Origin: Asterias amurensis
Lineage: Eukaryota; Echinodermata; Asteroidea; Forcipulatida; Asteriidae
DNA length: 64,000 nucleotides
Reading direction: 5' to 3'
Assembly: GCF_032118995.1 (NCBI RefSeq)
Contig: NC_092651.1
Location: 12,859,285 to 12,923,284 of the forward strand
Each line of letters begins with the position of its first letter. Position 1 is the stretch's first letter. Made by a program: the position numbers and the translations under genes. The notes under the pieces were generated by a model that did no database searches, was not told the origin of the DNA, and saw nothing but the letters and a program-made list of their open reading frames with translations. Positions 33,445 to 60,854 of this stretch are shown piece by piece.

Positions 33445-33703
33445 CCCCAGAGCTGGAGACTTAGCCGAGGTTTGAAACTGAAATCATTCCAAAACTTGTT
33501 TTCCGATTAAACTGAAATCATTCCAAAACTTGATTTTCCGATTCATATGTAAATCTTGCATTATACCCTATAGCGTCATTGGGTATGTGCATGCGCATAC
33601 TGCACCAAAAACTAATCGAGCATTAGAAATACTTGTCAGTTGTCAAAATGCTAATTATACGGAAGCGTATATAGGACATACCGAAAAAAAAATCGGGTTC
33701 CAC

Positions 33704-34328
33704 TATTTCGCCCGGGCGGATTACTAATTCACCCGGGCGGATTACTATTTCGCCCGGGCGGATTACTAATTCGCCCGGGCGGATTACTATTTCGCCCGGG
33801 CGGATTACTACTTCGCCCGTGCGGATTACTATTTTGCCCGTGCGGATAACTATTTCGCCCGGGCGGATTACTATTTCGCCCAAGCGGATTACTATTTCGC
33901 CCGGGCGGATTACTATTTCGCCCGGGCGGATTACTATTTCGCCCGGGCGGATTACTAATTCGCCCGGGCGGATTACTATTTCGCCCGGGCGGATTACTAT
34001 TTCGCCCGGGCGGATTACTATTTCGCCCGGGCGGATTACTATTTCGCCCGGGCGGATTACTACTTCGCCCGTGCGGATTACTATTTCGCCCGGGCGGATT
34101 ACTATTTCGCCCGGGCGGATTACTATTTCGCCCGGGCGGATTACTATTTCGCCCGGGTGGATTACTATAGAGGGCACAACGAATATAAACACATACCAAA
34201 TAGTAATCCGCCCGGGCGGATTACTATTTCGCCCGGGCGGATTACTATTTCGCCCGGGCGGATTACTATTTCGCCCGGGCGGATTACTAATTCGCCCGGG
34301 CGGATTACTATTTCGCCCGGGTGGATTA
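33704..34328 (+). repeat. Left arm: 21-bp tandem array, plus orientation
   Basis: About 27 units of 21 bp. Variants include CGCCCGTGCG, CGCCCAAGCG and AATTCG for ATTTCG. The array is broken once at 34168-34212 by a copy of the spacer (TAGAGGGCACAACGAATATA, then AACACATACCA) and a single reversed unit. Long open frames across the array arise because 21 is a multiple of three and the unit lacks stops in several frames. Confidence 0.9.
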
Positions 34329-34384
34329 CTATAGAGGGCACAACGAATATAAACACATACCAACCCTAATCCTCACTTCACAGT
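34329..34384. repeat. Central spacer of the foldback element
   Basis: AGAGGGCACAACGAATATAA, then ACACATACCAACCCTAATCC, then TCACTTCACAGTTAATCC. Its first 32 bp repeat the segment at 34168-34199, so the spacer was partly duplicated inside the left arm. Confidence 0.8.
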
Positions 34385-35098
34385 TAATCCGCTGGGCGAA
34401 ATAGTAATCCGCCCGGGCGAAATAGTAATCCGCCCGGGCGAAATAGTAATCCGCCCGGGCGAAATAGTAATTCGCCCGGGCGAAATAGTAATTCGCCCGG
34501 GCGAAATAGTAATCCGCCCTGGCGAAATAGTAATCCGCCCGGGCGAAATAGTAATCCGCCCGGGCGAAATAGTAATCCGCCCGGGCGAAATAGTAATTCG
34601 CCCGGGCGAAATAGTAATCCGCCCGGGCGAAATAGTACATCGCCCGGGCGAAATAGTAATCCGCCCGGGCGAAATAGTAATCCGCCCGGGCGAAATAGTA
34701 GTCCGCCCGGGCGAAATAGTAATTTGCCCGGGCGAAATAGTAATCCGCCCGGGCGAAATAGTAATTTGCCCGGGCGAAATAGTAATCCGCCCGGGCGAAA
34801 TAGTAATCCGCCCGGGCGAAATAGCAATCCGCCCGGGCGAAATAGTAATTCGCCCGGGCGAAATAGTAATCCGCCCGGGCGAAATAGTAATTCGCCCGGG
34901 CGAAATAGTAATCCGCCCGGGTGAAATAGTAGTTCGCCCGGGCGAAATAGTAATCCGCCCGGGCGAAATAGTAATTCGCCCGGGCGAAATAGTAATCCGC
35001 CCGGGCGAAATAGTAATCCGCCCGGGCGAAATAGTAATCCGCCCGGGCGAAATAGTAATCCGCCCGGGCGAAATAGTAATCCGCCCGGGTGAAATAGT
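34385..35098 (-). repeat. Right arm: 21-bp tandem array, minus orientation
   Basis: About 34 units, reverse complement of the left-arm unit (GCCCGGGCGAAATAGTAATCC-type, here split for length as GCCCGGGCGAAATAG plus TAATCC). Variants AATTCG, AATTTG, ACATCG and AGTCCG occur. Units are more numerous than on the left. Confidence 0.9.
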
Positions 35099-35506
35099 GG
35101 AGCCCGATTTATTTTTCGGTATGTCCTATATACGCTTCCGCATAATTACCATGAAATGAGTTTCCCTTTATATTTCACAATGATTGTTCGTGAGTATGTG
35201 CGAATTGCAACAATAATGTAGTGCAAACCAATTACAATTTTAATTTAACAGACACCTGTTATTTAATTAACAAGGCATATACCATGGGTTGTTTGTTTGT
35301 CTATAATAAGTATCGTGTGGGAAATATTACAGTTTGTCATAACAAACCGTAGAGGTGTGGTCAAGTCGTTAAAATGTCTGTCGCTGTGATAGCGTTCCGA
35401 CTCTCCCCGCAAACAATATATTTTATACGATTTTATAAAGGTTTTATTGATGTTTTGTGTTGATCACCACTTTTTTCAACGGTAGTAAAACCAAAATTAT
35501 CCACTG

Positions 35507-49824: not shown

Positions 49825-50115
49825 CAACATTACAATGATGTACCTTCTCTTGATTCATACAATATCGCAAAGTTAGTCTATTGATCCAGGAAGATCAACA
49901 GTCTTGCCAACATTACCAATGATGTACCTTATCTTGATTCAAAGAGTGTGTTTATACCAGAGATATCAGCATTAACATTGGTCCAGGAAGAACAACAGCC
50001 TTGACAACATTACCAATGATGTACCTTATCTTGATTCAAAGAGTGTATTTGTACCAGAGATATCAACATTAACATTGATCCAGGAAGAACAACAGCCTTG
50101 ACAATATGACCAAAG
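49825..50115. repeat. Tandem repeat, three units of about 85-100 bp
   Basis: Repeated blocks ATTACCAATGATGTACCTTA, TCTTGATTCAAAGAGTGT, CCAGAGATATCA and GATCCAGGAAGAACAACAGC, starting near 49828, 49911 and 50008. The last two are nearly identical. Confidence 0.8.
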
Positions 50116-51921
50116 ACGTACCGCTCATTTACTCAAATATAAACAGGCAATACAATAATTGTAACACCGCTGTTGTACCTTTATCATGAGAATCACATAA
50201 CGAGCATAGTAGTTCCCTCGACATGACCAGCCTCTCAAATCTTTATTTCACGAGTCGTCAAAACTAGTTACAAAATGCATAACTGATTCTGACCGTTAAC
50301 ATTTCGACTCCAAGAACGGTACACGCATACTTTGATTAGTAGTCCTTATGGGGCCTTGCTGTTGCACCATAGAGAAGTACCGCCTCAATCGACACCAAGT
50401 TTCAAGTGTTTAACAAACTCGCATATAAATGTTAGCTATAGGCTACTCCACGTCCAGATTTTAGAAAGGGACTTTACTGTAACATTTCCAGCCATCATGA
50501 TTTGTATAATAAGATGAAGTGTTGACATCTTACACTCAAAAGTCGTTAAACTGATACGGAAGTCCAGTAAACTAAGGTTTTCTTATGGACATAATATTTA
50601 ACCACCACAGTGAATATTTTATATTAAAACGCGACATTCTAAGATTCTGCTTTGTTATTGGTTTAAACCATAAAGATAAATGTTCTCTCGTAAGCATTTA
50701 GAAAATGAAAGTGACAGTGAATTCCTTGTGAGGGCGAAAGTGTAAACTGGTTAATTTGCATAATAAATTGTTTGCAAAACGAACTCAATCGACGGATGGG
50801 TATAAATACGGTGAGTAGGCCTGATGCGTATGCAAATGAAAGAAAAAAGTTTATTTAATGAAAACATTAGTAAGCTGTGTGGGGATGTCTTTAAAATCGT
50901 CACACATAAAACCGTCTCACATGTATTATGTCCCTTTGATTGTATGCAACATTCCTGAAAGGCAACAATATTGAAGTACTTGCGTACAAAATTTAACCCA
51001 GTCACACAAACTCACACAAGTGAGTGATGACCTTCCATAGTTGACCCTCATGTTGTTCAACTCGCTGTTCTAGTTCATGTCACACGTTACCTATTCCTAA
51101 TGTTCAGGTTCATGTACTTGAGTGATTTAAGCGTCAACCAGTTTGTTTTCCCCCACGAGGTCGTTCAAGTGTTTCTCATACATTTTGCATGGGATGCTTT
51201 AACATTAAAGAGTGTTTGCCTGACGTGCCGCAGTTAAGCTGTCGTGCCACCGATGAGCAATTTTTACGAACCACTTCTCATTTAGAACCATGCAGGAGTG
51301 AGTTTAATCTCGACGTTCGAACAATGTGTCTTCAGGTCCGCGTCCCCAAAGTTCATTAACGGTACTTATGTATAACGTGATGCTATTCATAAGCCCGATG
51401 TGGAACTTATGCCCAAATAAGGAGAGGAATAAGGATCAATCACTTGCAGAAGTTCTCTTATATCAGGAAGTCTCTTATATCAAATGAATGTGCAAGAGAT
51501 AAGCAAGGGTATTTGATATACCGTTGGGTAATTGAGGTATCAGATAGTTCATTTATATCACAGTTCTTGGATATCTCTATTCAACATTGCTATCGATCAC
51601 TGCTATCTGCAATAGTATCCAGTATCTTTCAATCCGCCAACCAGGACAGACTGTGACTAACGTAATCCATATAAAGATCACCACACTACAAGTCTTTACA
51701 CGATAAGCAGATAAGAGTTGTCAAAAGTCATTTGTCAAAACATGGCAACATTTTTTTTTAGAATAGCCGGCCAGCATCGCAATGCAGGCATAATTTCCTA
51801 GCATTCTTAGTCATTTATTGTAATATCTGTATACTTAAGACACAGTATACATAAGAGATTATTGTCGGGAAATGAAACGGATTTGTTTGAATTTGAAAGC
51901 TCTCTGAATATAGTACCAACG
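50116..51921. other. Intergenic, no gene seen
   Basis: AT-rich, no recognised exon or clear repeat. Confidence 0.4.
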
Positions 51922-59645: not shown

Positions 59646-60854
59646 ATGAATGTATCTAACGTCATATCACCAGGTCCCATGGAGTACCAACGTAACATAA
59701 CACCGTACCAGTTGGACCACAACTACTCTGATTATTATGAGTATCACAACATGCCCGACTTTGACGACTTATACACGATAGAGAGTTTATCCTACCACCC
59801 ATCCGAACTTATCATTATCACCTGCATCATGCCGACCATCCTATGTCTTGGGTTAATAGGCAACTTAGCCTTCCTCTTTGTGGTGTTTCGGGTGCGCTGG
59901 ATGCGCACTGTGGTGAATTTCTATCTGATAAACTTGGCGGCAGCCGATATCTTATTCCTGTGTGCCGCTATTGGTGAGAAGATTGGCATGTATGTGAACA
60001 ATCCCATCATGTATGACGAGTCGTCCAAAGGTAAAGTGGGCTGCATCATAATGGCCTTCGTCAAAGGTTGGTGTTACTATACTTCTATTACTTTGGTAAC
60101 GTTGGTCTCGGTGGGTCGCTTCTACGCCGTGTGTAAACCGCACGATTTCAAACTCAATAGTAAGCAAAGAGCTTTGAAACTTATCTCAGCAACTTGGCTG
60201 GTGTGTTGCATACTGGGTGCTCTCGTCATACCCTCCAAGTCGATGGCCAAGAAAATGTACTATTATCCCGAGTTGGACCCCAATGAGGATTTTATAGAGT
60301 TCATCAACAACCCACGGTATGTGGAGACCTGTATGCCGACATCGGGAATTAATTGGATCGCGTATGTTACTGATGGTGCCCAAGCCCTGCCGTTCTTGAT
60401 CGCCATGTCAGGAAATATCAAAATCTACGTGAGTATATACCGGGCCCTGAACGACCGGGTCACCAAAACCACCCGGCAGAACTCCCGGGAACGCAAGACC
60501 GAGATGCGGGATAGGGTCAGCCGCATGCTGATCGCCAACGGGACAATTTTCTTCTTGTGCCTGGCCCCGTTCGAGATAACTTCCCTCTCCGAGATGATTA
60601 TGAGGAAGGGGCTTGGCGACAGCACCACCCGCCGGACTTGGACCCAATTCTGCCGGGTGATGATGTACCTCAATTCGGCAGTCAACCCCGTTATTTACAA
60701 TATAACGAACCCCAGGTATCGTCAAGCCTTCCTGAGAGCCTTCAGTAGGAAGCAAGACCGTAGGAATGAATCCAAGTCGCCCTCAACGGTACAGCTAAGC
60801 CATCTGCGTGGCGAGAGTCAAGAATCTAGAGTGAAAAAAGATGGATCACATTGA
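59646..60854 (+). CDS. Rhodopsin-like (class A) G protein-coupled receptor, orphan, peptide type
   Basis: Single-exon 402-residue seven-helix receptor. Helices lie at about 54-80, 89-111, 132-158, 178-195, 235-262, 292-318 and 333-352. Class A landmarks: GN at 72-73; LAAAD with D101 in helix 2; C133 at the top of helix 3 for the disulphide to C229; CLAP (305-308) in place of CWxP; NPVIY at 347-351, followed by a helix-8-like NPRYRQAFLRAF. The DRY position reads GRF (157-159), so the acidic residue is missing. The N terminus has N-glycosylation sites at N3, N17 and N26 and a Tyr/Asp cluster (YSDYYEYHNMPDFDDLY) suited to tyrosine sulphation. The basic third loop and Ser-rich tail are usual. It should act at the plasma membrane. 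It is nearest in feel to invertebrate neuropeptide receptors; ligand unknown. Confidence 0.9.
   Translation: MNVSNVISPGPMEYQRNITPYQLDHNYSDYYEYHNMPDFDDLYTIESLSYHPSELIIITCIMPTILCLGLIGNLAFLFVVFRVRWMRTVVNFYLINLAAADILFLCAAIGEKIGMYVNNPIMYDESSKGKVGCIIMAFVKGWCYYTSITLVTLVSVGRFYAVCKPHDFKLNSKQRALKLISATWLVCCILGALVIPSKSMAKKMYYYPELDPNEDFIEFINNPRYVETCMPTSGINWIAYVTDGAQALPFLIAMSGNIKIYVSIYRALNDRVTKTTRQNSRERKTEMRDRVSRMLIANGTIFFLCLAPFEITSLSEMIMRKGLGDSTTRRTWTQFCRVMMYLNSAVNPVIYNITNPRYRQAFLRAFSRKQDRRNESKSPSTVQLSHLRGESQESRVKKDGSH

Follow-up and report, generated by a model that had tools for sequence, protein, structure and literature searches.

In the foldback transposons TU of sea urchins and FB of Drosophila, the target duplications measure about 8 bp and 9 bp, respectively. 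PMC4079207 gives duplications of 8-10 bp for Tetris, assigned to Mutator by its authors, and states that most foldbacks seem to be Mutator members, with exceptions. A different transposase serves Galileo, for which PMC3688188 describes sites, within the tandem repeats of the long TIRs, that are bound by the THAP domain of the transposase and are proposed to confer specificity. The IS3EU group is known from another set of features: PMC10045372 gives it TA..TA ends and usually 6-bp duplications, and PMC12730594 reports the ends TAYGG..CCRTA in rust fungi. Half of a beetle satellite resembles IS3EU (PMC5844308), and one paper that touches on both IS3EU and foldbacks cites Tetris and tabulates IS3EU matches among oyster satellites. 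In the openly accessible papers searched, as far as their titles and the openings of their abstracts show, no foldback IS3EU element is described, although an entry in Repbase or in subscription journals may exist. We propose here that an element of the starfish Asterias amurensis is probably an IS3EU-type, non-autonomous DNA transposon with foldback architecture.

Layout of the starfish element

The window, i.e. the whole stretch of 64,000 nucleotides that was analysed, contains a 1485-bp element at 33658-35142 with a 6-bp target-site duplication, TAATTA, on both flanks. Its parts are as follows (window positions; strand where it applies):

33652-33657, left target-site duplication TAATTA
33658-35142, whole foldback element, non-autonomous, 1485 bp
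33658-33706, + strand, left tip of 49 bp: TACGGAAGCGTATATAGGACATACCG, an A-tract, then TCGGGTTCCACTAT
33707-34168, + strand, left array of 21 counted 21-bp units plus an end piece
34169-34199, + strand, partial spacer copy of 31 bp within the left arm
34200-34332, + strand, inner array: half a unit, flipped, followed by 5 counted units
34333-34383, + strand, central spacer, 51 bp
34384-35093, - strand, right array of 33 counted units in the opposite orientation
35094-35142, - strand, right tip of 49 bp, reading TGCGGAAGCG... inward
35143-35148, right target-site duplication TAATTA

The inverted repeats are long and composed of short tandem repeats, and together with a middle domain and flanking duplications they give the element the features of the foldback class. 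The element starts with TACGGAAGCG and, read from the opposite end, with TGCGGAAGCG, the tips being inverted 49-bp copies that differ at 3 of 49 positions. The preliminary description had the span exactly, placed TAATTA correctly on both flanks and put the tips at about 50 bp; it also recognised the opposite tandem arms, whose units it numbered at about 27 and 34 where we count 26 and 33 (units with up to six changes included), and the short spacer, while overlooking the partial spacer copy at 34169-34199. Since this copy breaks the left arm, the middle of the element has been rearranged. Spacer-related sequence is also seen by eye in the family members L043, L044, L047, L051 and L054 (L-numbers are fetched loci and C-numbers contigs of the A. 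amurensis genome).

The array unit, TTCGCCCGGGCGGATTACTAT, is 21 bp long and near-palindromic. All 56 of the 56 neighbouring steps in the three array blocks measure 21 bp, and 35 of the 1239 array positions deviate from the consensus. CpG is retained at 169 of the 177 CpG positions of the arrays, which may point to a young or sparsely methylated window copy. Aligned with its own minus strand, the element matches end to end at 82% (1468 columns, 121 gap positions); in another register inside the arrays the self-alignment reaches 87% over 1341 columns, a value that owes much to the near-palindromic unit. Judged from its sequence, the element can be predicted to fold on itself.

Elsewhere in the window, a 402-aa open frame of the rhodopsin-type GPCR family lies at 59646-60854 on the + strand (7tm_1, E 7e-35), and a 97-bp tandem repeat of 2.5 copies with 91% matches at 49880-50122. 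The 30-bp tandem repeats at 202-508 fall within an open frame on each strand (+, 17-592; -, 131-637) and are possibly a repetitive coding exon.

The window family and its target duplications

Searching the genome with two tip patterns at up to three mismatches returned 41 sites for each pattern and 0 for the reversed controls, the union amounting to at least 50 window-type tip sites, so that the objection foreseen in the preliminary description, namely tips occurring only here, falls away. A two-unit array pattern gave 290 genome matches against 0 for its reversed control. As the reversed controls yielded nothing (290:0 for the array, 41:0 for the tip), the structure in the window is not a product of chance. 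Among the two-unit matches listed (100 of 290), all lie, by eye, at sites that also match the tip.

Twelve copies, from 169 to 1485 bp in size, have both tips inside one fetched locus when the tip is matched more loosely. Perfect 6-bp duplications flank seven of these twelve, the window copy included (TAATTA, TGAATC, GTCTTG, TTTTTC twice, CGATCC and CATAGG), and the remaining five pairs are imperfect, with 4, 4, 2, 3 and 3 of the six positions matching; beyond the twelve, a pair at C14:13817306 that is split over two loci shows a 5/6 duplication by eye. Six offset controls gave 0/12 each, and 2 of 132 cross-element pairs had matching duplications, as expected from TTTTTC being common to two copies. 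The bases beyond the six do not match, either in this family or in the other families treated below. Being multicopy, bounded by target-site duplications and represented by copies with differing insides, the locus was rightly taken for a foldback-type mobile element. The empty site sought for the window copy did not come to light: its joined flanks match the window site only in the genome search, hence no duplicate empty site was found.

Most copies start with TACGG or TATGG (TA[CT]GG); the right tip of the window copy starts with TGCGG, one change off TAYGG, and the TA end is lost in a few copies, e.g., the right end of L039, L047, L049 and L050. Over 22 copies of the family, 284 of 288 close steps in the arrays are exactly 21 bp, and the 324 units carry 278 substitutions. 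In the arrays, substitutions thus outnumber irregular spacings by 278 to 4, and in the insides there are 97 gap openings to 355 substitutions, a contrast inflated by the exclusion of units with more than three changes and by low-complexity runs in the insides, and to which homogenisation of the arrays could contribute. Four long window-type copies, of each of which 1.3-1.4 kb was examined, have insides that are alike, at 83-95% in some pieces and 70-79% in others, and tblastn of IS3-like proteins against these four insides gave nothing notable (best E 0.65). On contig C10, an identical 28-bp outer flank accompanies the window-type tips at 12402483, 12457917, 12703019 and 12905318 (L038, L029, L052 and L053); this site was probably multiplied via regional duplication.

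Transposase relatives and the probable affinity to IS3EU

The 6-bp duplications and the TA..TA (TAYGG..CCRTA) termini of the window family coincide with two published features of IS3EU. Autonomous IS3EU elements code for a DDE transposase of the IS3/IS481 type. In view of these ends and duplications, the genome was searched with the rva_4 integrase-core model (Pfam PF24764, a choice of model that was a guess), which produced ten matches; several of the matching loci themselves carry inverted tandem arrays. There is no transposase in the window element, and the nearest of the transposase matches to this model and to the N-terminal and catalytic-core queries lies 48 kb from any of the 50 window-type tips, so that the window family is non-autonomous as far as seen. 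The autonomous copy between window-type tips that the preliminary description had in mind accordingly did not turn up in this genome search.

Locus L060 encodes an uninterrupted 412-aa protein with HTH_21 (E 3e-7), which we take to be the IS3-type helix-turn-helix, and the rva_4 integrase core (E 5e-32; both Pfam); a fragment from L065 is 43% and a core from L064 is 37% identical to it. Proteins of this HTH_21 and rva_4 type, uninterrupted and longer than 400 aa, are found at L060, L061 and L062 (C10:6691360, 6719932 and 9702064; domains checked in L060), and two of the three stand about 28 kb from each other as inverted duplicates with 100% identity. Scanning the fetched stretches of L060 and L062 brought up no convincing TA..TA ends accompanied by a duplication, for which reason the L060-type protein may be an old copy or a host-adopted IS3-like transposase. 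Its structure predicted from the single sequence is of low confidence (mean pLDDT 36.5). Transposase N-terminal matches occur at about 24 places (30 rows) versus 7 (9 rows) for the catalytic core, a contrast which is indicative only, as the two queries come from different families.

Foldback elements of other families with TAYG ends bring the arms and the IS3-like protein together. Among 13 two-tip copies examined, 12 have perfect 6-bp duplications (L065, L066, L070, L071; C1:19696850, C4:9859871, C10:13978829, C9:15935359, C15:9887828; C5:8305345, C21:7607215 and C9:6793027), the imperfect exception being C8:19828289 with 5/6. Tandem arrays are present in all seven copies that were read inside; for the other six (C1, C4, C10, C9:15935359, C15 and C8) the ends only were fetched. 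The element at C5:8305345-8307781 has tips TACGAAAGCCCATTAGTGCC, the duplication ACAAAC and 31-bp arrays in both arms, between which an IS3-like transposase survives as broken pieces spread over several frames. L065 and L066 share identical tips, TATGAAGCCCCATTGGTGCC, and arrays of a 21-bp unit unlike that of the window; their duplications are CCAAAC and GTTTGT, and between their arms an IS3-like protein is preserved over its first 153 codons. L066 sits in a 53-bp satellite, of which two intact stretches at the same locus (2 and 3 substitutions) have a single GTTTGT; they represent the natural empty site and show that L066 was inserted with a 6-bp duplication. L064 retains its left tip and array together with remnants of a transposase that are spread over different frames and contain a stop; its right end was not found in the end scan.

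Some further observations concern these relatives. The left array of the C5 element (L074/L068) is split by an apparent nested insertion bounded by GCCTTGATCAAGGC palindromes. In the family-2 elements L070 (from 542, + strand) and L071 (minus strand), a truncated transposase N-terminus continues in frame into an array whose 21-bp unit makes 7 codons, so that the open frames, of 174 and 260 aa, end in heptapeptide repeats of the SGGRKII and RPQDNKW types. The N-terminal fragment of family 2 differs at 1 to 5 bases only, too few for a selection test. Of 68 family-3 tips, six (C4:34073, C8:39841, C14:38059, C14:62380, C16:49802 and C18:55491) are no more than 63 kb from the start of their contig, a possible hint of a subtelomeric position.

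Several points weigh against the affinity. Besides the 48-kb distance to the nearest transposase match, the five window-family pairs with imperfect duplications and the slight resemblance of most array units (see below), tips outside the window family agree with the window tips in the first eight bases, TACGGAAG, at best; those of C21 and C15 open with TACGGAAG exactly like the window's and then diverge, and a transposase was seen in neither. The window family would be tied to IS3EU by its ends, its duplication length and the shared architecture. Given that no transposase was found between window-type tips, one might prefer another superfamily (an undescribed one, Dada, or a hAT of the kind with 6-bp duplications that PMC12730594 mentions), in which the 6-bp duplications and TA ends would be coincidental and the foldback arms convergent. 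We regard this as unlikely, for the agreement of the ends with IS3EU extends to details (TAYGG), and this architecture is coupled to an IS3-like transposase in the same genome. A Mutator-type foldback like FB, Tm1 or Tetris, mobilised by a MULE transposase, would have an identical architecture and would follow the assignment of most known foldbacks in PMC4079207; it is nevertheless very improbable, as the perfect duplications are of 6 bp, with no matching bases beyond them, instead of the approximately 8-10 bp of TU, FB and Mutator foldbacks, the ends are TA..TA, and the related foldbacks of this genome contain pieces of an IS3-like protein. The name "TU/FB-like" first given to the element therefore holds for its shape, and the kinship with FB or TU that it implied finds no support in the 6-bp duplications and the TAYGG..CCRTA ends. 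Finally, a satellite-like palindromic array or an assembly artefact can be virtually dismissed: long inverted tandem arrays do tend to rearrange or misassemble, and the left arm is visibly rearranged, but the copies are dispersed, with common tips, differing flanks and perfect duplications, the listed array matches (100 of 290) coincide by eye with tip sites, and the PacBio HiFi reads of the assembly, with a mean of 12.5 kb according to PMC10625585, are longer than the element and could span the 1.5-kb inverted structure.

Possible role of the arms and comparison with known foldbacks

Returning to the IS3EU reading, a mechanism can be outlined in which a DDE transposase of the IS3-like type, produced from another genomic locus, would act at the TA..TA ends, and the phased arrays would recruit many copies of it. 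The arrays would expand and contract by unequal exchange, and internal deletion would strip the transposase gene from the element. By analogy with Galileo, each array is probably a cluster of sites to which the transposase binds. With a period of 21 bp, about two turns of the helix, such sites would share one face, and a near-palindromic unit at two turns, or at about three in the C5 type, fits dimers bound in large numbers along that face. The period would be kept equally well if unequal exchange homogenised the arrays, so that phasing alone is no proof of function; against strict phasing speak the varying lengths of T-runs in the 31-bp arrays of L068, the 15-bp spacing in L070 and the 17- and 22-bp steps in the C21 arrays.

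Between families, the units are related to different degrees. An array at L067, the element ends of which were not found, matches the window unit at 15/21 positions in its consensus and at 17/21 in its best unit, and 0 of 5000 shuffles did as well in either case. Apart from a 6-bp centre, two of its units are identical to the window unit (15 of 15 positions), reading ATTTCG-TTCGAA-CGGATTACT where the window has ATTTCG-CCCGGG-CGGATTACT. The resemblance of the family 3 unit to that of the window is weak (12/21; 233 of 5000 shuffles as good), that of the family 2 unit is not above chance (11/21; 1222 of 5000), and the C21 unit likewise shows nothing above chance.

It is tempting to go further, although we hold the following only as a tentative and rather doubtful proposal: the foldback arms might be a working, inherited part of the whole starfish IS3-like lineage, with the two- and three-turn arrays as a multi-site docking platform, the families diverging by change of unit, once via the swap of a 6-bp palindromic centre, and the transposase being reduced repeatedly, in family-2 derivatives, to its N-terminal part, which presumably binds DNA and might serve as a repressor. 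Tandem-repeat arms may serve transposase binding rather than be accidents of decay, and the starfish system, with its defined tips, units, 6-bp duplications and uninterrupted transposase relatives, opens the binding idea to bench testing.

Compared with described systems, the window element resembles FB, TU, Tm1 and Tetris in its outer domain, inverted tandem-repeat arms and middle domain, and differs from them in that they are mostly Mutator elements with longer duplications, a distinction drawn from their descriptions. With Galileo, of the P superfamily in Drosophila, it has in common foldback-like TIRs with internal tandem repeats, whereas the Galileo transposase is of the P type with a THAP domain and belongs to a superfamily other than IS3EU. 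To IS3EU it is likened by the TAYGG..CCRTA ends, the 6-bp duplications and relatives in the same genome with IS3-like HTH and integrase-core pieces; unlike IS3EU elements, it is geneless and its arms are long tandem arrays. Seen in several families of one genome, and in one copy together with transposase remains, foldback arms of the IS3EU kind would add a third transposase group, unrelated to Mutator and to the P-type Galileo, to those with tandem-repeat arms, which argues for a repeated origin of such arms.
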